DNA from: Calothrix sp. NIES-4101
Lineage (GTDB): Bacteria > Cyanobacteriota > Cyanobacteriia > Cyanobacteriales > Nostocaceae
DNA length: 64,000 nucleotides
Direction: 5' to 3'
Assembly: GCA_004296455.1 (NCBI GenBank)
Contig: AP018280.1
Span: forward strand, 4,836,001-4,900,000
The notes beneath the pieces are model-generated. The model made no database searches. It saw nothing but the letters and a program-made list of their open reading frames with translations, and was not told where the DNA came from. The position numbers and the translations under genes are program-made. Shown here in pieces: positions 2,943-14,100 of this stretch (position 1 is its first letter; each line of letters begins with the position of its first letter).

Positions 2943-2995
2943 ATCAGATGTTTTGCATAATTTTGCAGAACTATAATGTGTTAAATCCTGAATAA

Positions 2996-3020
2996 CTTGT
3001 TGTTACCAACAAGCTTTTTT
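2996..3020 (+). terminator. Rho-independent terminator after the FAS1 gene
   Basis: A 7-bp stem, CTTGTTG (2996-3002) with CAACAAG (3007-3013), has a TTAC loop and is followed by C and six T. Confidence 0.7.
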
Positions 3021-3056
3021 GGAAATATCAAACAAGGTACTCTTTGTAATTTAAAC

Positions 3057-3091
3057 CCCGTTCAAATATTAATTTTGAACGGGATTTTTTG
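3057..3091 (+). terminator. Second strong hairpin with T-run
   Basis: A perfect 10-bp stem, CCCGTTCAAA (3057-3066) with TTTGAACGGG (3074-3083), is followed by ATTTTTT. It could be a back-up terminator for the FAS1 gene or a terminator for an unseen small transcript. Confidence 0.6.
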
Positions 3092-3186
3092 TAGATTGAT
3101 TTAATGGACGTGAAGGTATTCCCGACAAGATATAAAGCAGTTGGAGCAACAATTGAGATGATAAAATCAGTAAAATCTTGGGAGGA

Positions 3187-3303
3187 TTATTTGAATTTTT
3201 CCGGCATTGCTGAAGAATGATGCTCAACGATTAACAATTTATCGTTAATCTTGCGGTAAACAAATGTCAGTAAACCAAAAAGTTTTTTGGAAGCCTTGTA
3301 ACA
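3187..3303 (-). pseudogene. C-terminal fragment of a SnoaL/NTF2-like (CaMKII-association-type) protein
   Basis: The last ~38 codons of a minus-strand frame include TFVYRKIND and LLIVEHHSSAMPE, which resemble the C-terminal strand pair of SnoaL-like proteins of the calcium/calmodulin-dependent kinase II association-domain (SgcJ/EcaC) type. The usual ~100 N-terminal residues are absent; upstream the frame runs into the IS982-type transposase remnant. I infer a gene truncated by a transposon-related event. Its 5' part was not found beyond the IS982 remnant. Confidence 0.5.
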
Positions 3304-3322
3304 TGACGTGAGTTCGGCGGAA

Positions 3323-4282
3323 CTAAAACAGGGCAGGAGGTAGTGCAGGCAGGTCTTTGGGGTAAATATCAATAGACGGTTTGTTGGGTAAGTAGGTATA
3401 AGCAATCAAACCAGCTACCAAATTAACCAAAAAGTTCAATGGGCTACGATGTCTTGAGTGCTCTTCTTACAAACTTGGGCGGGACGGAAACCGACACCGC
3501 CCAGTTTGCGCAATTTGACATACATTTTTGAGATAGTCATTTACTGACTCAATCACTGCTCGCTTGCGTAATAAGATTTTATCAATCAGTTTAACCAAGC
3601 GATTTTTCATATTTTTTTTTGATTTGCTAATAAACTCCAAACCTCGTTCATATAGCTCTTCAAATATTTTTTGCGAAACATAACCTCTATCCCCGAAAAG
3701 TTTGCCAATTATGTCTTCAGTCATCTCTGGAACTGGTTTTCGGTCATCTACGTTAGCTGGAGTTAGTTTAAAAGCAAGTAATTCTCCTTTATCATTAATA
3801 ATTAAATGTAGCTTGAATCCATAATGCCAACCTACAGAATTCTTGCCCCATGCAACTAATCCTTTAAATACTTTATGAGAATGTGCTCGGCAATTGTGGC
3901 AAACATTTAATGGAGTTGAGTCGATAAAACTAATCCCTGTAATTTCGCCAGTCAGTGTGTTTAAAAAGCAACATAGTAACATTAAGCTCCAAGGCATCAA
4001 TTCTACAAATCTTGTATAGCTAACTAGATTGGGAAAAGCGTTACGCCAACCAGGCAGCACATGCAAAGTGTAAAAATCTTTAAAAGTCCGATAGCCACTA
4101 CCATGAAAGGCAATAACTATTGTCATCACTTCTGACAAGTGCATTCGGGAAGTGCAACGGCATTCTCCTGAAGTTGATGGTAGCTGCGGTATCTCTTGCC
4201 AGAAGCTTTCCCATCGCTTGTAGAAATCGTCGATATCGCAGAATATTTGGGTGATGTCCAGGCGGGATACAATGGTAGACAT
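3323..4282 (-). pseudogene. IS982-family transposase, interrupted by an in-frame stop
   Basis: The first 257 or so codons are a typical IS982 transposase: an N-terminal helical domain, then the DDE core with FIDSTPLNVCHNCR, GWHYGFKLHL and KLFGDRGY, and IESVNDYLKN near the end. After VCQI the frame enters a foreign stretch (AQTGRCRFPSRPSL) and stops at 3467-3469. Directly after, the same frame resumes family-like sequence ([14 protein letters not shown], then [10 protein letters not shown]) and ends at TAG, 3323-3325. Without the insert the protein would be about 303 aa, normal for the family. Terminal inverted repeats were not securely found; GTACTATTTTTACCC at about 4333-4347 may mark the upstream end. 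Confidence 0.85.
3464..3511 (-). repeat. ~48-bp palindromic insertion inside the IS982 transposase gene
   Basis: Removing 3464-3511 (boundaries uncertain by a few bases) restores a continuous transposase frame. On the plus strand the insert has arms CAAACTTGGGCGG (3470-3482) and CCGCCCAGTTTG (3497-3508), complementary except for one bulged base, around a 14-nt loop. Its length is a multiple of three, but it brings a TAA. It behaves like a small mobile palindromic repeat. Confidence 0.65.
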
Positions 4283-4704
4283 GGCTGAGATACTTATTTT
4301 TATTACATATTTTTTAGTCTCAGCTTTTTTTTGTACTATTTTTACCCATCCTCAATAATTCTTTGCGATTGTTCTATCCAATTACTCTGATTCCTTTCAT
4401 CGCAAGCTTTTTGCTTCTACGATCGCCGTCGAACTCACGTTAACATGGGCATCTCAGCTAAATGGTGGAATACCACACAATCACCTAATAGTCAGCGTTT
4501 CAGATGATCCCGCTAGTTACCTTAAGGCGATCGCTCTCAAGCGGATGCTGTTTTTCTCCTTGAACACGAAGGCTGAAACCCCTATTTTTTGGTTAGTTTC
4601 CAAAAGTTTGTGGTTTACTGAATGTATAATGCGCTCTGACTTTATTTACTCGCACAATTCACATAATTAATTCATGCACCTATTGATAATCACAATATTC
4701 GTCA
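4283..4704. other. Intergenic DNA between the IS982 remnant and the kinase fragment
   Basis: No gene is seen. Near 4425-4440 is CGCCGTCGAACTCACGT. An inverted, slightly shorter version (ACGTGAGTTCGGCG) lies near 3305-3318 on the other side of the IS982 remnant. The two may be copies of a dispersed repeat or old flanks of an insertion. Confidence 0.4.
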
Positions 4705-5190
4705 TTATTTAATCAATAGGGTTAGCAGAAATGTTGTTTGACTTAGTATTGCTGGTTCAATTATTAAATTACCATTGTGCGCCCGTGTAATCTCCCGTGC
4801 TAAACTCAGCCCTAATCCGATGCCTTCAATTTGACGCGATCGCACTTTATCTCCTCGATAAAAACGGTAGAATAAATATTCGCGATCGCTTGCGGGAATA
4901 TCTAGAGAAGCGTTGCTCACACGAATCACTACTGTTTTTTTCTCTTGGTAAGCTTGAATTTTAATCCAACCATTCGGTAAGTTGTATTTAATGGCATTAC
5001 TAATTAAATTTTGCAGCACCTGAGCTAATAAATCGCGATCGCCTTGGACTTTGAGATTCTCGGCAATGTTAGTTTCTAATCCTAAATTTGGGGCAAGTAG
5101 TTTAATATCTTCTGCCATTTCTCCCAGAAGTATTGACATATTTACTTCTTTTTTATAGATACTCATTTTCCCTGCATCTGCTAATGTATA
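4705..5190 (-). pseudogene. Sensor histidine kinase, C-terminal half (ATPase domain)
   Basis: This is the catalytic half of a kinase, without sensor or phospho-accepting histidine. The frame from about 5190 reads TLADAGKMSIYKKEVNMS, which matches the end of a HisKA domain, and continues into the HATPase domain with an N-box (NLISNAIKYN), an F-box-like LFYRFYRGD and a G2 box (GIGLGLSLAREI). An in-frame TAA sits just upstream, where the IS5-like element begins. The missing N-terminal half is on the same strand at 9617-10528. An internal ATG at 5166 could in principle start a 153-aa ATPase fragment, but there is no sign it is functional. Confidence 0.85.
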
Positions 5191-5249
5191 TTAGAGCTGT
5201 CTTTAAAATAAATTCCGTGAGAGAATAATCAGGACTAAGTAAAATTACG

Positions 5250-6754
5250 GTAAGGATTCAGGTGTGGGGTAGTTGACATGGGTAGGTGTAGTACGAGAAT
5301 ATCGACAGCATGAGTCAGAAAATGCCAGCGATTCAAAGGGATGAAGAATTATACCAATTGCCGAAAGAGGAATTGGTAAAAATCATCCAGGCATTGAGAA
5401 TAGAATTAGAAAGGCTCAAAGAAATAGTAAATAAAGACAGTAAAAGCTCATCAAAGCCACCATCACAGGACATAATCAAAAAATCAGAAAAAAAGAAATC
5501 AGAACAACAGGATTCAGAAGAAGGAGAAAAAAGAAAGCCAGGAGGGCAACCAGGACATGAAGGAAAAACCCGTAAAGGTTTTGGACGAGTAGATAGAATC
5601 GAAATGCTACGTCCAGAAAAATGCCCGTACTGTGGAGGAATTCACTTTCTTGAACTTGCAGATAAAATCGAAAAGCAAGTTGTGGCACAATTTGTAGCAA
5701 ATCCAATAGAAATAGTTGAATACCAACGAATTCATCAACAATGCAGTCACTGTGGAACAGTAAGTGCCGCAGATTGGAGCGACTCAATAGTACCGGGGCA
5801 AGATTTGGGTTTGCGCTTACAAGCATTAATCGGTTGGTTAGGAAATTATGCCCACATGCCGTATGAGAAAATTCGCGAGTTAATAGAAGAATTAGGGCAG
5901 ATAGATATTGGAGAAGGAACGTTAGTAGCAACCAATCAAAGAGTTGCACAAGCAATAGAAAAACCAGTAAAGGAATTGTCAGATTGGGTAAAAAGTGAGC
6001 AGCCAAATATCCATGTAGACGAAACACCCTGGACAGTAAAAGGGGTAAAAGAATGGCTATGGGTGTTTGCCAATAGAGGTTTTTGCTTGTTTAAAGCCGC
6101 AGATACACGTTCAAGAGATGAACTTGAATCGATATTAGGAAGCGAGTATACAGGGGTTTTGAGCAGCGATGATTTTAGTGTTTACAATGGCTACGCTGCG
6201 AATGCACAACAAAAATGTTTAGCGCACATGCGTCGGCATTTCAAGAATTTGAGCAAATCTCCGGTATTACATAATCATGAGATTGCTTTATGTTTTATCG
6301 AATTAATCGATGATGTGTTCAAGAATTATCAGCAGTTTCAAATTACTGGCTCCCTTGAAGCCTACAAACAATGGGCTTTTGACTTCAAATCCACTATTAA
6401 TAAAGCTTTCAAGGAATGGATACCACAAGCTGGTGCAACAGCGTTGAATTTGTTAACTAAATTGCGAGATAAATACGACCAATGGTGGTATTGTCTCGAC
6501 CATCCTGAAGTTCCTCCCGATAATAACCTCGCAGAACGTAACTTGAGATTAGCTGTCACTAAACGAAAAATTAGTGGTGGTTCGCGTTCGCTTGAAAGAT
6601 TTGGAGATACTGCAAATCTATTAACTGTTGTGCAAACTTGTAGGAGTCAGGGACGTTCTGTAATTGGCTTTTTTGCGAATGCAATACTAGCTCATACACA
6701 CAATCAAATTATTTTTCCTTCCCTCATTCCTTGCTCCGCGACCTGAATCCTTAC
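5250..6754 (+). mobile_element. IS66-family insertion sequence (single-ORF type)
   Basis: The ends are exact 14-bp inverted repeats, GTAAGGATTCAGGT (5250-5263) and ACCTGAATCCTTAC (6741-6754). They are flanked by the perfect 8-bp direct repeat AAATTACG (5242-5249 and 6755-6762), the duplication length known for IS66. The element is 1505 bp with one transposase gene and lacks the tnpA/tnpB accessory genes. It entered the leader of the IS5-like transposase gene. Confidence 0.93.
5310..6746 (+). CDS. IS66-family transposase
   Basis: This is a 478-aa complete transposase. The N-terminus is a charged helical segment (about 10-50), followed by a Lys/Pro-rich linker with PGGQPGHEGKTRKGF, a zinc-binding pair (CPYCGGIHF and HQQCSHCG, about 108-150), and the DDE core with HVDETPWTVKG, LSSDDFSVYNG and the C-terminal NNLAERNLRLAVTKRKISGG. 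The stop codon lies inside the right inverted repeat. The frame is intact, so the gene may be active; related elements usually also encode TnpA and TnpB, which are absent here. Confidence 0.93.
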   Translation: MSQKMPAIQRDEELYQLPKEELVKIIQALRIELERLKEIVNKDSKSSSKPPSQDIIKKSEKKKSEQQDSEEGEKRKPGGQPGHEGKTRKGFGRVDRIEMLRPEKCPYCGGIHFLELADKIEKQVVAQFVANPIEIVEYQRIHQQCSHCGTVSAADWSDSIVPGQDLGLRLQALIGWLGNYAHMPYEKIRELIEELGQIDIGEGTLVATNQRVAQAIEKPVKELSDWVKSEQPNIHVDETPWTVKGVKEWLWVFANRGFCLFKAADTRSRDELESILGSEYTGVLSSDDFSVYNGYAANAQQKCLAHMRRHFKNLSKSPVLHNHEIALCFIELIDDVFKNYQQFQITGSLEAYKQWAFDFKSTINKAFKEWIPQAGATALNLLTKLRDKYDQWWYCLDHPEVPPDNNLAERNLRLAVTKRKISGGSRSLERFGDTANLLTVVQTCRSQGRSVIGFFANAILAHTHNQIIFPSLIPCSAT

Positions 6755-6852
6755 AAATTACGCATACTACCAATGACAAGTCCTTTAGAGAGAATAGAGT
6801 CACACCCACAGGAAGCAAAGCGATTGATTGGGATTAGATATGAGGATTTTAT

Positions 6853-7013
6853 GGCTCTTCGGCAAGTTTTATGGAGCTTGAGGTTTTTTTGCAGTAAAAC
6901 CCTTACAAAACAATGATTACAAGCAACTATGATACTTTTTGAGGCTAAATTCCTATGTAATAAGGCTTTCAAGGATTTTTAGCTAAGTTTTCCATAAAAA
7001 GAACTGAAGAGCC
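6853..7013 (+). mobile_element. 161-bp ISL3-like MITE, copy 1
   Basis: The element runs from GGCTCTTCGG to CTGAAGAGCC. Its ends share GGCTCTTC and, a few bases in, TTTTATGGA. It is flanked by a perfect 8-bp duplication, GATTTTAT (6845-6852 and 7014-7021). Ends beginning GGCTCTT and an 8-bp duplication fit the ISL3 family. It encodes no protein, so it would need a transposase supplied from elsewhere. Confidence 0.92.
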
Positions 7014-7486
7014 GATTTTATTTCATTAGTAATGTTAGCAGAACAAAGGCACATAGAGAAACAAGCAGAAATTGAAAAAAACAAGATTCGTTTAATTGCT
7101 CCTGGAGGAGGAAGGAGCGCAGAAATGACAGTAAAACAAGGAATATGTCTTTGTTTAGTATATTTGAGACAAAAGCCGACATTTGAAATACTAGGATTAC
7201 TATTCAGCGTCTCAAGAAACAAAGCAAATAAGACATTTAATTATTGGGTGGAAATTCTCCCTTGAAATTTTACCTGCTTCTCAAATGGAAGAAGTAGAAA
7301 ATGATAGTGAAAAATACCAAGCACTCTGTGAAAAATTATGCGAGTATGAATTAATAGTAGACAGTGCAGAGCAAGCAATAGAGAGACCTGGTGATTATCA
7401 AGAGCAAAAAAAGTATTACTCAGGGAAGAAAAAAATGCACACAATTAAAAATCAGTTTATAGTGATGCCAGGAGGTAAAGATATTG

Positions 7487-7647
7487 GGCTCTTCAGTTCT
7501 TTTTATGGAAAACTTAGCTAAAAATCCTTGAAAGCCTTATTACATAGGAATTTAGCCTCAAAAAGTATCATAGTTGCTTGTAATCATTGTTTTGTAAGGG
7601 TTTTACTGCAAAAAAACCTCAAGCTCCATAAAACTTGCCGAAGAGCC
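7487..7647 (-). mobile_element. 161-bp ISL3-like MITE, copy 2 (inverted)
   Basis: This is the reverse complement of copy 1; I see no base difference over the 161 bp. It is flanked by its own perfect 8-bp duplication, AGATATTG (7479-7486 and 7648-7655), so it arrived by an independent transposition rather than as part of a local inversion. It interrupts the IS5-like transposase between KDI and VDI. Confidence 0.92.
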
Positions 7648-7695
7648 AGATATTGTTGATATTTGCATAGGGCATTTTGGCAAGATAAGTGATAT

Positions 7696-9084
7696 CTCAT
7701 ATCTTGCACCTAGCTGTGTAAACACGTAAAAGCGAATATAATGATGCAAAATCTTACAGGAAGCAAAGGCTTGTCGAAAGCAAAAAAAAGGTAATTAATA
7801 ATACTACAAGCTAACTAATACTACGGGTTCGGATGCCAAAATAACAGATGCTAAGATGCTGTACGTTTCAAAGGGGATGACCGCCATGAAATTGTCAGAT
7901 TTGCATTGGCAACCGAAAACATGAGAGAAAAGGCGTGAAATATCTGATTAAACAAAGCACTAAGAAAATGCTTGCTCACGCCCAAGATTTAGTGTACACC
8001 CTCAAAGAACTGATGCCGACGCAGTACCAAAAAGATAACCTAGAAGCGATGTTGGCGTTATTCTTAGAGGCACAAGGACACCCATTACCTGAACATAGTC
8101 AGACAAAATCCCCAAGCGCAATCAGTCGATTTTTAAATATCAATCCTTGGTCAACAAGGGAAATGATTCGGATAATTCGCTCTTCAGTATTACAAAAAGT
8201 TATCAATTCATTATCGTCATCAGGCAAAGGGCGCAGACCATTTTTACAAGTAATTATTGACCTGACGACTTTAGAAAAACGTGGCAAATTCCCAGAATTT
8301 AGTGATTTAATCAAAGTCTATAATGGTAAGCGTGGTCTCCATCTAGTCGTAGTTTATTTGGTAATAGGACAATGGCGCATTCCTTGGAGTTTTCGTGTTT
8401 GGCGAGGTAAGGGAACTCCTTCCCCTGCAATGCTTGGGCTCAAACTGGTTAAACGTTTACCTCTTTCTTTAACTCAACATTTTCAAACAATTATTTTAGC
8501 TGACACAGCCTTTGGCAGTGTAGAATTCCTTGAGGGTGTACGTCGGCTTAAATATCATGCTGTTACAGGTGTATCTAGTAGTCGTAAGTTGGCTGATGGC
8601 AGATTTTTAAGACGTTTACATCAACAGGGTCAACAGGTTTATTTATTTGGTTTAAATTTCCCCGTTACCGTTTCTTGGTATTACTTAAAACGCGATAATG
8701 GCAAACTAGAAAAACGCTTTGTTTTGTCTACTCGTCCAATTAAAGCTTCTACTCTTAAGTGGTGGGGCAAGCGTCGGTGGCAGATTGAGGGGTGGTTTAA
8801 AACTGCAAAGCATCGTTTTGGCTTACACCGTTTTGGGCAAGGGACTCTGCTGGGTATGTATCGCTGGCTTATCCTTTCACTGACTGCTTACCTCATTGCC
8901 CATTGGACTTATCTCCATTTTCAGGGCGCATCGCCACCTGATTGGGGTCAGGCTGCACAATCTGCCCTTGAATCTATTTTTCCACATATAATTGTGTATC
9001 TTCTTTTACTTGATATTCAACGGCTAACTCCCCTTGCACGTAGTCATGGTTTTGACATTCATATTTCCAGGTGCAAGATGTGAG
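7696..9084 (+). mobile_element. IS4-like insertion sequence
   Basis: The ends are 16-bp inverted repeats with one mismatch: CTCATATCTTGCACCT at 7696 and AGGTGCAAGATGTGAG ending at 9084. They are flanked by a 4-bp duplication, ATAT (7692-7695 and 9085-9088). Excision with one ATAT copy restores SDIKLF in the host transposase. About 240 bp of leader precede the transposase gene and hold no other gene. Confidence 0.87.
7935..9083 (+). CDS. IS4-superfamily DDE transposase
   Basis: The 382-aa intact frame starts at GTG 7935, preceded by a purine-rich stretch; ATG 7971 is an alternative. The core shows DLTTLEKRGKFP (first Asp), TIILADTAFGSVEFL (second Asp) and a C-terminal RRWQIEGWFKTAKHRFGLHR, which fits the R-x-x-x-E-x6-K signature of IS4-type enzymes. 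The TGA at 9081-9083 lies within the right inverted repeat, as in compact elements. The exact subgroup was not determined. The gene looks intact. Confidence 0.87.
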   Translation: MKYLIKQSTKKMLAHAQDLVYTLKELMPTQYQKDNLEAMLALFLEAQGHPLPEHSQTKSPSAISRFLNINPWSTREMIRIIRSSVLQKVINSLSSSGKGRRPFLQVIIDLTTLEKRGKFPEFSDLIKVYNGKRGLHLVVVYLVIGQWRIPWSFRVWRGKGTPSPAMLGLKLVKRLPLSLTQHFQTIILADTAFGSVEFLEGVRRLKYHAVTGVSSSRKLADGRFLRRLHQQGQQVYLFGLNFPVTVSWYYLKRDNGKLEKRFVLSTRPIKASTLKWWGKRRWQIEGWFKTAKHRFGLHRFGQGTLLGMYRWLILSLTAYLIAHWTYLHFQGASPPDWGQAAQSALESIFPHIIVYLLLLDIQRLTPLARSHGFDIHISRCKM

Positions 9085-9413
9085 ATATTAAATTATTTAG
9101 AAATCATCGAGATAAACTAGATAAAAGACAAAGATTTTTAGGAGATAAAGCTTACATTGGAGAAGAACTGATTACAACACCTCATAAGAAACCAAAAAAG
9201 GCAGAGCTTTGCGAAGCAAAAAAAGAGGAAAATAAACAGTTATCCTCCTTACGAATTGGTGTTGAGCATCTGATTTGTCGAGTTAAAACTTTTCACGTTG
9301 CTAGTGACAGATTTCGCCTAGCTAGACATCGTTACAACCACGTAATAATGGCAGTATGCGGTTTAGTTAGATTACATCTAAATTCTTCTTTGATCTTAAG
9401 TGATAATCTTTGA

Positions 9414-9616
9414 GCTTTATCCATCCACATTTACTTGAAAATAGAGCTATGTTTTTCCCAACTTTTAATATTTTTGTTTTTAAACCCCAGAAACCTCATT
9501 TTTAAGTTTGACACTCAAAACAGTACAAGTGTACCTTTGTATCTAAGAAGCTTTTACTGCAAGCACTTTATCTTTCGTAGATAAGTCTATTAGTAGTAGT
9601 TTTTGCGTTGTGACGC
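9414..9616. other. Junction between the IS5-like element and the kinase N-half
   Basis: The first ~35 bp belong to the IS5-like right end. The remaining ~168 bp (9449-9616) match neither the kinase nor the element as far as I can see. Roughly 8-12 kinase codons, from the end of HisKA, are missing. The stretch may be a further decayed insertion or deletion scar. Confidence 0.35.
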
Positions 9617-10528
9617 TTAAAGACTCACTTCATTTAGGAGGTTGCCCAGACTTTGCTGCATTGTCGAGCCAGGTTCCGCCTGTTGCAGCATTTGTTCCAA
9701 TTCTCCTTGCAAAATTGCTAGGGGGGTTTTGAGTTCGTGGGCTGCATCGCCACTGAAACGGGATGCTTGTTTGAAACTGCGTTCCAGGCGTTCGAGCATT
9801 TGGTTAAATACCTGGATGAGTTCGACAAATTCCATATCTGTTGCAGCTGTGGGAATACGTCGATCCAATCCTTGGGCTGTGACTTGACGAATGGCTGTAG
9901 TCATGCGGTGGACAGGAGTTAAAGCTTTCCCCGATAGCCACCATGCTCCCCCAGCAATCAGTAATAGGATTCCGGGAATGGAAACCAGAAAAATGTTACT
10001 CACTACCCTCATTTCTCGACCGATCGCCTGTAAATTGACAGCAATTGCTACCTGTTGTTCGGGTAAAGCGATCGCACCAATACGCCATACACCCATTGGA
10101 GTGCGTTGCGTAATCAGGCGTGGTTTGGGTGCTGGAAAATTTGGTGGTGGGGGGCGGAAACGCCAGTCTGGGTTTGGTGGTGGTGGTAACGACAAGGGTT
10201 GATACATAATTCTTGCCAGGAAACTAGTATCTAACTCCGTAGACCAATTGAGCGAGCGATATAAAGTCTCGCCATTTCTGCCTACAACCCAAAGTGCTAC
10301 CGGGGTATCCGCACCAGCCTCCAAATCACGGGCTAATATGGCTTCGTAGGTTTGCCATTGTTGTTGGTAGCGCATTGTCCGCACCAGTTGATTTTCGAGT
10401 TTGGCATCTAAACGACCGACTTTAGCGTTGCCAATCAGCCACCAAGAAGCAAAACCAAAGCCAATAAGGGCACTACCTGCGAGGGTAGTAGATAACAGAG
10501 CAATTCGTAGGCGAAAGGAGCGAAGTTT
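9617..10528 (-). pseudogene. Sensor histidine kinase, N-terminal half (sensor, HAMP, HisKA)
   Basis: ATG 10528 (MKLRSFRLRIALL) is preferred over an upstream TTG at 10588. The fragment has a first membrane helix near its start, an extracytoplasmic region with a Pro-rich stretch (LSLPPPPNPDWRFRPPPPN), a second helix (NIFLVSIPGILLLIAGGAWWL), a HAMP linker and a HisKA domain with the phospho-accepting His in AAHELKTPLAIL. It stops after LLNEVSL, at the insertion junction. The ATPase half lies at 4705-5190 on the same strand. The regulator gene ends 61 bp upstream, so this was a two-gene operon. A truncated kinase without an ATPase domain cannot autophosphorylate. Confidence 0.88.
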
Positions 10529-10588
10529 CATATCAAGTTTGTGGGCAGATGAATGCTGGAAACAACGCGGAGAATGGTTAAACTGCAA

Positions 10589-11266
10589 TTAAGACTCCAA
10601 TTTGCGAAAACGATAGCCCACACCGCGTACACTTTCAATTAAATCTCCTGCACCCATGCCATCAATTTTTTTGCGAATACGCTGAATGCATACATCCACC
10701 ACATTTGTATTCGGATTGAAATCATAACCCCAAACATGTTCCAAAATTTGGGTACGGGTAAAAACTCGTCCCGGCGATCGCATTAAATATTCCAACAAAT
10801 TAAACTCGCGAGTAGTGAGTTCAATCACCTGGTGATCGCAAGTTACTTCTCGCGTAATTCGGTCAAGTTTCAGTGAACCAATCACAATTTGATTTTGGCG
10901 ATCGCCAATACTACGACGCACTACAGCGAGAATCCGAGCCGCCAACTCCTCAACAAAAAAGGGTTTAGCAATGTAATCATCTGCGCCCAAATTTAATCCT
11001 TCCAGGCGATCGTCCAATTCATTGCGAGCAGTCAATAAAATTACAGGTACATTGTGTCCGGCTCGACGTAAACCTTTGAGAATCGCTAATCCATCTTTTC
11101 CCGGAACCATAATATCCAGGACAATGGCATCATATGCGTTTTCCATTGCCCGCAGATATCCCTCATCCCCATTGTCGCAATAATCGACAACAAACCCCTG
11201 TTCTTTCAATCCGGTTTGGACGAAGTTGGCAATTTTCGGCTCATCTTCAATAAACAGAATATTCAT
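10589..11266 (-). CDS. OmpR/PhoB-family response regulator
   Basis: This is a complete 225-aa regulator. The receiver domain (1-~120) has the acidic pair EDE, the phosphorylation site Asp in DAIVLDIMVPGKDG (about residue 51), the conserved Thr in LLTAR and the Lys in YIAKPF. A winged-helix DNA-binding domain follows (about 130-225), with ELTTREFNLLEYLMRSPGRVFTR and the recognition-helix region NVVDVCIQRIRKKI. It is upstream of, and co-oriented with, the broken kinase, so it is now probably an orphan regulator. The sequence resembles the CopR/CusR metal-response group, but the signal is not known. Confidence 0.93.
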   Translation of the reverse strand: MNILFIEDEPKIANFVQTGLKEQGFVVDYCDNGDEGYLRAMENAYDAIVLDIMVPGKDGLAILKGLRRAGHNVPVILLTARNELDDRLEGLNLGADDYIAKPFFVEELAARILAVVRRSIGDRQNQIVIGSLKLDRITREVTCDHQVIELTTREFNLLEYLMRSPGRVFTRTQILEHVWGYDFNPNTNVVDVCIQRIRKKIDGMGAGDLIESVRGVGYRFRKLES

Positions 11267-11437
11267 CTCCAGTCTGGCTCATCAGTGATCACGGGATTTT
11301 TCGGCGTTGCCTAATTGCGGGATGATTTGGGAATTGGCATCAAAAATAATCACCCTGTCGCCGCGTCTCCCCCGTCTCTCTATCTCCGTGTCAGTTTGTT
11401 TTTGTGGCTCTACTATAAACCGATTTATTATTCCCCA

Positions 11438-11480
11438 AAATTACAAAACTGTAATTTAAAGGTTATGAAAACTGTAATTT
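11438..11480. promoter_or_regulatory. Operator-like repeat cluster between the regulator and the secreted repeat protein
   Basis: Three copies of one half-site are present: an inverted copy AAATTAC (11438-11444), then GTAATTT (11451-11457) and GTAATTT (11474-11480). The last two lie in identical 13-mers, AAAACTGTAATTT, at 11445-11457 and 11468-11480, 23 bp apart. Direct repeats of about two helical turns suit an OmpR-type regulator. The cluster lies ~65-105 bp before the start at 11543. Confidence 0.5.
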
Positions 11481-11542
11481 TCGGGTGGCTTAATCAAAAC
11501 ATAGACAAAAAGCACTTCCGCAAGCAAAGAAAATTAACCATC

Positions 11543-12151
11543 ATGATCAATCGAAACACTCGAAACTTACTAACCGCCTTGACTGCTTCCCTTTTGATTG
11601 GGACTTTAGGAGTCGCTGTTGCCACTGAAGCGATCGCATTACCCAATCTCAACCTTATTGCCCAAAATTCTCCCCAAAAAAGACCACATCATCGTCGTCC
11701 AGATTTCGCCGCCGCCGCCAAGCAATTAGGAGTTAGCGAAGCTGAATTAATCAAGGCTTTGGGATTACCTGAAAAACCGCCAACTGACGTAAATGGTCGT
11801 CCTTCGGGACCTCCACCCAAACCAGATTTTGCCGCAGCAGCCAAAAAACTCGGCGTTACCGAAGAACAATTAATTAAAGTCTTGGGCATTCCACCTCACC
11901 GTCGCCCCGATTTTGCCGCCGCCGCTAAACAATTAGGAGTCAGTGAAAAGGATTTAATTGCGGCGTTGGGAGTCCCAGAAAAACCACCAACTGACGCAAA
12001 TGGTCGTCCTTCGGGGCCTCCACCCAAATCAGATTTTGCTACAGCAGCCAAAAAACTTGGTGTTACCGAAGAACTATTAATTAAAGCATTGGGAATACCA
12101 CCCCATCCCCCAGGCGATCGTCCAGCACCAGAGCAAGCACCTAATTCATAA
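11543..12151 (+). CDS. Secreted protein with tandem 69-residue repeats
   Basis: The open frame extends up to 11315, but ATG 11543 gives a clear signal peptide (MINRNTRNLLTALTASLLIG, processed after roughly EAIA). The ~202-aa product holds two tandem repeats with a DNA period of 207 bp (starting at 11693 and 11900). Each contains two copies of a ~23-aa helical unit like PDFAAAAKQLGVSEAELIKA, separated by a Pro/Gly linker (EKPPTDVNGRPSGPPPK). No enzymatic motif was seen and the function is unknown. It is divergent from the response regulator across the repeat cluster at 11438-11480, so it could be a target. A strong terminator follows. Confidence 0.8.
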   Translation: MINRNTRNLLTALTASLLIGTLGVAVATEAIALPNLNLIAQNSPQKRPHHRRPDFAAAAKQLGVSEAELIKALGLPEKPPTDVNGRPSGPPPKPDFAAAAKKLGVTEEQLIKVLGIPPHRRPDFAAAAKQLGVSEKDLIAALGVPEKPPTDANGRPSGPPPKSDFATAAKKLGVTEELLIKALGIPPHPPGDRPAPEQAPNS

Positions 12152-12194
12152 GTAATATATTTGCTGAAATATGGCTCCGTAATATAAATGCATC

Positions 12195-12225
12195 ATACCT
12201 GGAGGAATATCTCCAGGTATTTTTT
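12195..12225 (+). terminator. Rho-independent terminator
   Basis: A perfect 10-bp stem, ATACCTGGAG (12195-12204) with CTCCAGGTAT (12211-12220), is followed by five T. It closes the repeat-protein gene. Confidence 0.85.
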
Positions 12226-12345
12226 CGTAACTTCCCCAGCTATGGAAATCAAAACCAATATGTACTTTTCCCGTTATTAACTATAAACATACTGGCTTCA
12301 GTGCGATCGCTTATTGGATTCTCCATAAGGCGAGCATTTGGGAGT

Positions 12346-13887
12346 TCATTTTCTTGTATACCGATGTTTGACACCAACAGGAAAATATTCACTATCACCA
12401 TGCAATTTTAATGTCACCTGGGGAGTTTGATATTCCTTAGGAACATAATTGGCAAATTCGCTATTGAGTCGCTTTAATTGCACCAGAATTGAAGTTGTTA
12501 TTTCTTGTCTCTTTTCTTCGCTTGCCTCGACTCCCGGCGCTAATTCTACCGTCACTGTTAAAAATCGATTTTTGTCGCTGTTTTCAATCACTTGTAAGAC
12601 AAATTTACCTGTCACCCATTCTTTAATTCCCGACTGTTCCAATCCCACAGAGATATTTTCTGGGTATATATTGGCACCAAAATAGGAAACTGTAAAATTA
12701 GACCTGCCAAATACATAAACAAAGGGTAAATTTCTGATCCCTCTGCATGTCTCTTCTGTTTCGACATTTATGTTATTGTTAATACTTGAACTTAAAGCTG
12801 TAACTGGATTAAATCCCCAGTGTGAGAGAAATTCCAGCATCGCTTTGTAAGTAATGATCCCACCATTATCTAAAATATTATACCTAATTAAGGGAATGCC
12901 ATTATTCCCAGAAAATAATAATACACCGTCTTTGACTTCAAAAAAACGGCTGAGGGGGTCATACTGTACCAAAGTTGGTAAGCGCGATTCTCCAAATAAA
13001 GCTTTGGCAGCTTCAGGATTTTCGGCGAAGAAACGACGAATGCAAATGCTCAAAGGCGTTTCATTCCCCAATACCCCAGCATCCGCAGTTCCATACAAAG
13101 AAGCAAAATCGTAACAGGGATTTTGGGAACCGATTCTTTCCGCGACTAAACTTCGCCATTCTTCACTAAATACTTCCCCGGCGGTGACAAACTTGATGTT
13201 GTATTGTTGCCATGCCACACCTCTGGCAATTCCGGTATCAATGACATCTTTGAGAAATGGTGGATACCCCAGTAACACTACTTGCTCGAAGTTTGTGCCG
13301 AGTTCAGAGACAACACGTATAATTTCATCTTTATTGTTACCTGGAGTCACGATAGTTAGGGGATATCCTTTACTGGCAAGATATCGGCAACAATTACTTG
13401 TGAACATCCCACCTACCCAAGTTCCTAGGGTAAAACATATCACAGCTAGGGTAGGTTTTGTATCTGCAAAGAAGCTATCGTGAAAGACTTGCTCGAAGCG
13501 GGTAGCAATTTCCAGTTCATCGGTGAAAAATCGGCACCAAAATGTTGGTTTACCAGTGGAACCGGAGGATGCAGCAATGAAGTCACTACTGTGAATTTCC
13601 CCATTCCGAGATAGTTCAGCCAACGAAAAGCGTTGCAGGTAATTTTCCTTTGTTAATGGTGGTAAAGTTTGAAAATCCGTCGGAGTTTGGATACTGGCAG
13701 AATTAATACCATTTTCTGTGAGGAAATTCTTGTAGGCGGGAACATTTGCCACAACCTGATGAAATAGCTCTAATGTTGCTGTGGCTGGTTCTGTGTGCAA
13801 ATGCTGTTGAAGTTTTGTGTCGAGGGGAGTGTGTAAAAAGTGGGAAAATGTCTGTATGGCATACTGCCGTCTTTCTTCGGGATTCAT
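12346..13887 (-). CDS. Phenylacetate-CoA ligase (PaaK)-like adenylate-forming enzyme
   Basis: The frame opens at a TTG (13905) with no visible ribosome binding site; ATG 13887 (MNPEERRQYAIQTF) is taken as the start, giving about 513 aa. The phosphate-binding loop SSGSTGKPTFW and the adenylate motif FASLYGTADAGVLGNE are typical of PaaK-like members of the AMP-binding superfamily, which activate a carboxylate as an acyl-adenylate. The substrate cannot be read from the sequence. The expected C-terminal sub-domain is present. It stands alone, convergent with the repeat-protein gene. The neighbourhood lacks phenylacetate-catabolism genes, so a degradative role is not supported. Confidence 0.8.
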   Translation of the reverse strand: MNPEERRQYAIQTFSHFLHTPLDTKLQQHLHTEPATATLELFHQVVANVPAYKNFLTENGINSASIQTPTDFQTLPPLTKENYLQRFSLAELSRNGEIHSSDFIAASSGSTGKPTFWCRFFTDELEIATRFEQVFHDSFFADTKPTLAVICFTLGTWVGGMFTSNCCRYLASKGYPLTIVTPGNNKDEIIRVVSELGTNFEQVVLLGYPPFLKDVIDTGIARGVAWQQYNIKFVTAGEVFSEEWRSLVAERIGSQNPCYDFASLYGTADAGVLGNETPLSICIRRFFAENPEAAKALFGESRLPTLVQYDPLSRFFEVKDGVLLFSGNNGIPLIRYNILDNGGIITYKAMLEFLSHWGFNPVTALSSSINNNINVETEETCRGIRNLPFVYVFGRSNFTVSYFGANIYPENISVGLEQSGIKEWVTGKFVLQVIENSDKNRFLTVTVELAPGVEASEEKRQEITTSILVQLKRLNSEFANYVPKEYQTPQVTLKLHGDSEYFPVGVKHRYTRK

Positions 13888-14100
13888 TGCACTTGTCACT
13901 GTCAAAATTTGTTGTTATTAGTTAATGGTTAATTCAAAAGGGGAAGGTAGTCGAATAATCAACTTAATCTAGTGTTGCCTTTTTTTGTTTATGCACCACT
14001 CCTCGTCTTCCCCCTATCAATTCTGCTTATTTTCCGTAATAGTTACATTTTATTTTGTAGCAATTTAGTAAAAAATCCTTTAATTCGTCCCTTAAACACC

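Follow-up and report, generated by a model that had tools for sequence, protein, structure and literature searches.

A histidine kinase gene split by nested insertion elements beside an intact response regulator in Calothrix sp. NIES-4101

Histidine kinase genes interrupted by insertion sequences are already known in cyanobacteria. In Synechocystis sp. PCC 6803 'Kazusa', Hik32 (sll1473/sll1475) is interrupted by the transposase sll1474, and in another Synechocystis strain it is whole, according to PMC7496141, which cites Okamoto et al. 1999. The locus described here resembles Hik32 in that a cyanobacterial histidine kinase gene has been cut in two by an insertion sequence (IS), but it differs in two ways from Hik32 as presented in that source: a single transposase is named there, whereas here one element holds four more, and Hik32 has phytochrome-like features, whereas the kinase here is CopS-like. 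Because IS-split kinases are known from Hik32, the event itself is ordinary, and the conserved module in which it took place is the more useful part. A literature search returned no title on this locus among the matches listed.

By family, the closest named relatives are the heavy-metal sensor kinases of the CopS/CusS type (TIGR01386) and the regulators of the CopR type (TIGR01387), which are the best NCBIfam matches of the orthologues tested and of the regulator, respectively. Both nevertheless fall below the curated cut-offs: the four whole orthologues tested, out of ten, all score between 238.6 and 254.0 bits with TIGR01386 (cut-off 292.55), and the regulator scores 241.6 bits with TIGR01387 (cut-off 279.2); with the RppA model NF041734 the regulator reaches 207.4 bits, below the cut-off of 250. 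We therefore describe the kinase as CopS-like and the regulator as CopR-like, by profile score, and do not count them as members of TIGR01386 or TIGR01387.

The window, by which we mean the whole 64,000-nucleotide stretch analysed (C1:4836001-4900000 of a 7.59-Mb genome), carries the two kinase fragments on its minus strand. The N-terminal one (9617-10531) comprises a membrane sensor, HAMP and the beginning of HisKA, including the motif HELKTPL; Pfam finds HAMP and HisKA, the latter over profile positions 3-46 of 66, and no HATPase domain at E≤0.001. The C-terminal one (4705-5190) comprises the last stretch of HisKA (LADAGKMS) together with HATPase_c, matched over positions 1-107 of 111. These are the two halves of one histidine kinase. 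A sequence-only reading of this DNA had proposed just such a pair, a fragment with sensor, HAMP and the HisKA histidine but without an ATPase domain and a second with the end of HisKA and the ATPase domain, split by a transposon block and preceded by a regulator; Pfam agrees with the content of both fragments, with 9617-10531 as the extent of the N-terminal one, and the split as a whole is borne out by the domain halves, the orthologues and the structure of the block. An IS982-family transposase gene (3467-4282, minus strand) also lies just downstream of the C half.

The block between the halves measures 4,396 bp (5193-9588) and is composed of one 1,152-bp element with four nested insertions and their duplications; the 4.3-kb transposon block proposed earlier is thus real, its size being 4,396 bp and its structure that of an outer element holding four others. 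The outer, IS5-type element (5193-9588, plus strand; 1,152 bp net) is flanked by the 3-bp target duplication ATT, with copies at 5190-5192 and 9589-9591. Inside it lie an IS66-family element (5250-6754, plus strand; 8-bp duplication AAATTACG), a 161-bp MITE (6853-7013, plus strand; ends GGCTCTTC/GAAGAGCC, 8-bp duplication GATTTTAT), a second 161-bp copy of this MITE in the opposite orientation (7487-7647, minus strand; 8-bp duplication AGATATTG), and an IS4/IS701-like DDE element (7696-9084, plus strand; 4-bp duplication ATAT). When the 3,244 bp of inner elements and their duplications (8, 8, 8 and 4 bp) are subtracted from 4,396 bp, exactly 1,152 bp remain. The genome has three more copies of the outer element that are whole, and each of these also measures 1,152 bp, with the duplications ATT, AAT and AAT. 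Since the four elements lie inside the outer one, the outer element inserted before the four others, an order read from the nesting alone. Identity to other copies was considered as a means of dating the outer element and rejected: its pieces are 98-100% identical to other copies, a range that does not separate outer from inner elements, the IS66 and IS4/IS701-like elements having three other copies each at 99.7-100% identity.

The family assignments of these elements differ in firmness. The transposase of the IS66 element scores 283.7 bits with NF033517, above the curated cut-off of 180, and AAATTACG flanks the element on both sides with the 8 bp that are the target duplication length of the IS66 family. 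For the outer element, part of the second of its two ORFs alone scores 62.5 bits with NF033581 (IS5) against a cut-off of 140, and the element scores 108.2 with Pfam DDE_Tnp_4 against a cut-off of 24.8. The element at 7696-9084 scores 54.3 bits with the IS701 model NF033540 (cut-off 150) and has a 4-bp duplication, and we do not assign it to IS701. The two oppositely oriented MITEs within one IS form a long inverted repeat, and all nine further MITE copies examined are 161 bp long with 8-bp duplications. MITE ends of this kind are linked to ISL3; as autonomous partner of this MITE, ISL3 was rejected, since GGCTCTTC ends occur in none of the six ISL3 stretches of the genome examined with their surrounding DNA (some of these six matches are apparently pieces of one element).

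That the two halves derive from a single ancestral gene is supported by searches with each of them. Relatives of the N half were found in 10 of 39 other genomes (E≤1e-20), and each of these ten loci encodes both kinase halves in a single open frame (478-628 aa). Of 42 loci from a broader search, two were non-cyanobacterial (L105 and L106) and left out; 36 of the 40 cyanobacterial loci have both halves in one frame, counting L102, where the contig begins within the N half, although the sets of 40 and 10 loci are not independent, L060/L077 and L061/L092 looking like the same records. The uninterrupted gene that was to be sought in relatives is thus present at most of the related loci. In three of the four exceptions (L067, L100 and L104) the kinase frame breaks without an insert, and in the fourth (L099) it breaks into transposase-like sequence. 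The C half was searched in eight genomes, six of which have an N-half match, and in all six the highest-ranking match to the C half sits next to that N-half match, within one gene and frame. Since kinases abound (at E≤0.001 the C half matches its own genome 57 times, itself included), one could envision the two fragments as debris of two different kinases, or an intact copy elsewhere that marks them as such. However, the best homologues of both halves are one and the same kinase in 6/6 genomes, where further C-half matches (E≤1e-20) are at most 37% identical; in the own genome the next matches after the halves themselves are 28% (N half) and 31% (C half) identical, and searches with both halves found no second intact copy there. 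The same-gene matches and the C-half search already refute descent from two kinases, which we regard as having practically no chance of being correct.

The state of the junction bears on how and when the gene was broken. When the flanks are joined at one ATT, the product is 1,428 nt long, which is divisible by three, and its spacing equals that in the orthologues; the 8-12 residues that had been expected to be missing between the fragments are therefore not missing. (Among orthologues, the 43 stretches fitting the search motif show an identical length, but as this length is set by the motif itself, the agreement is no independent test.) Apart from the junction the halves are nearly undecayed, which makes the break look recent: of the positions invariant in other sequences, none of 53 is changed in the N half (43 sequences, window included) and 1 of 32 in the C half (45 sequences, window included), the single deviating position lying beside the junction. 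The near-identity of the IS66 and IS4/IS701-like elements to their other copies (99.7-100%) likewise speaks for a recent date. The small lesions cluster at the insertion point, and the insertion may have struck an already damaged gene, or the lesions may be assembly errors. It is possible, although we consider it rather unlikely, that small indels had already made the kinase a pseudogene and that the transposon landed in dead DNA, because the joined site keeps the orthologue spacing and yet contains two TAA stops and a short stretch by the target that fits the orthologues only in another frame. On the other hand, these lesions adjoin the insertion point, and outside them both halves stay in frame and retain nearly all invariant residues, a placement that fits damage tied to the insertion or following soon after it. 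Assemblies do tend to fail at repeats of this kind, but matching target duplications lie where expected around all five elements, which a misjoin would hardly yield, making it most improbable that the block is an assembly artefact. Just as little credence is due to the idea that both fragments are still made and cooperate in trans as a split kinase. Both halves are open and little changed, and the separate acceptor and ATPase domains of EnvZ can cooperate in vitro; here, however, the cut falls inside HisKA (profile position 46 of 66), which leaves the acceptor domain itself incomplete, and a consensus scan of 4700-5400, which is not proof of absence, found three promoter-like sites, all on the other strand, as compared with 2.4 expected by chance.

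We thus favor, with a probability of about 0.93, the interpretation that a conserved regulator-kinase operon was recently inactivated by an IS5-type insertion that was followed by four nested insertions. Under this interpretation, the 1,152-bp IS5-type element would have inserted where the kinase gene encodes HisKA, and four more elements would then have jumped into the IS5-type element. The kinase is presumably non-functional, because the acceptor and ATPase regions lie on separate frames, HisKA is cut and the junction contains stops. The regulator would now depend on basal activity or on other phosphodonors at its predicted operator, and the lineage may be losing the module, kinase first.

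The OmpR-type response regulator (10589-11266, minus strand) lies directly upstream of the kinase. Its Response_reg and Trans_reg_C domains are complete by Pfam, and it differs at 1 of 108 positions invariant in other sequences (43 sequences, window included). A regulator is found within 0.5 kb upstream of the kinase on the same strand in 38 of the 40 cyanobacterial loci and in 9 of the 10 of the other set, and in the remaining three loci the kinase starts near a contig end. Both the domains and this common position agree with the earlier view of an intact cognate regulator immediately upstream; the accompanying claim that the regulator has been left without its kinase stands as far as its cognate kinase gene is concerned, although the regulator could still be phosphorylated by a different kinase or a small phosphodonor.

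Between the regulator and a divergent gene lies a predicted operator, ATTACA-N4-TGTAAT with a further TGTAAT (11440-11478, plus strand). Of 46 regulator upstream regions (≤450 bp, window included), 37 contain the exact dyad and nine lack it; the 527 kb that make up the 50 loci, with overlapping parts entering twice, contain 63 sites altogether. A regulator match was present in 47 of the 50 loci plus the window, 46 regions were kept after duplicate and short rows were dropped, and L056 and perhaps L098, with a partial regulator match, are misplaced among them. Because an operator matrix had been fitted to the very sequences on which it was then run, its result, 40 of 46 sequences above the best of 230 shuffles, was set aside in favour of the exact dyad count. 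In the whole of its own genome, the dyad with a further TGTMAT occurs once, at this position. From position and conservation we predict that the dyad is the regulator's operator. The divergent gene (11543-12151, plus strand) encodes a secreted-looking protein with repeats (DFAAAAKKLGV..). In 20 of 40 and 6 of 10 loci a relative of this protein (E≤1e-6) is present upstream of the regulator and on the strand opposite to it, sometimes several kb away; none was found at that threshold in the locus DNA examined of the other 24. The regulator, the predicted operator and the divergent repeat-protein gene are all intact. Conserved neighbours in 52 clustered loci were considered as a guide to function, but with 11 loci for a membrane-fusion (HlyD/MacA-like) gene and 17 for one resembling a dioxygenase, they are too few to point to one.

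Comparison with two congeners suggests that the kinase is old in the genus. Neither congener has a match to the kinase N half (E≤1e-20) or the repeat protein (E≤1e-6), or anything closer to the regulator than 47% identity, and one of them (G002) has no C-half match at E≤1e-20. The other (G001) holds a 183-bp relic of the ATPase part of the kinase, 82.5% identical (L114:8481-8663, G001:C667). The genes that flank the module give long matches of 73-84% identity in the congeners; the relic thus has the similarity expected of vertically inherited genes, and the kinase was probably present in the genus ancestor. The fasciclin gene and the gene at 12346-13905, which flank the module in the window (region 2944-12350), are adjacent in both congeners, 0.33 and 0.24 kb apart, with no module between them. 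The relic in G001 lies away from the window's neighbours, beside a gene with a relative elsewhere in the NIES-4101 genome (C1:1629295), so that by synteny the module may either have moved into its place in NIES-4101 or have been lost from there in the congeners.

A second case may exist in Trichocoleus sp. FACHB-40 (L099), where the kinase match ends at residue 254 and only 172 nt of contig remain (L099:6777-6949). The sequence beyond the break encodes, in the opposite direction, 50 residues that match the end of an IS630 transposase model (positions 268-297 of 299; E 0.00047), at 19.7 bits far below the cut-off of 100, and the stretch has no Pfam match; the regulator upstream of the broken kinase is whole, with 81% identity. 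A transposon thus seems to have broken this kinase gene a second time, independently and at another place, although the contig ends at the break and the evidence for a transposon there is weak. More broadly, and at somewhat less than even odds, the regulator, the kinase and the divergent repeat-protein gene, with the ATTACA-N4-TGTAAT operator between them, could constitute a dedicated cyanobacterial envelope-signalling module, to which none of the NCBIfam models scored in this analysis gives a name above its cut-off. Loss of this module would begin with the kinase and would have been started by transposition on more than one occasion, here and apparently also in Trichocoleus sp. FACHB-40, so that the regulator works without its partner.

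The locus shows cleanly how transposition can deprive a two-component system of its sensor while the regulator, its predicted operator and a likely target can still be read. It also points to a conserved module of regulator, kinase and repeat protein in cyanobacteria, with a specific predicted operator.
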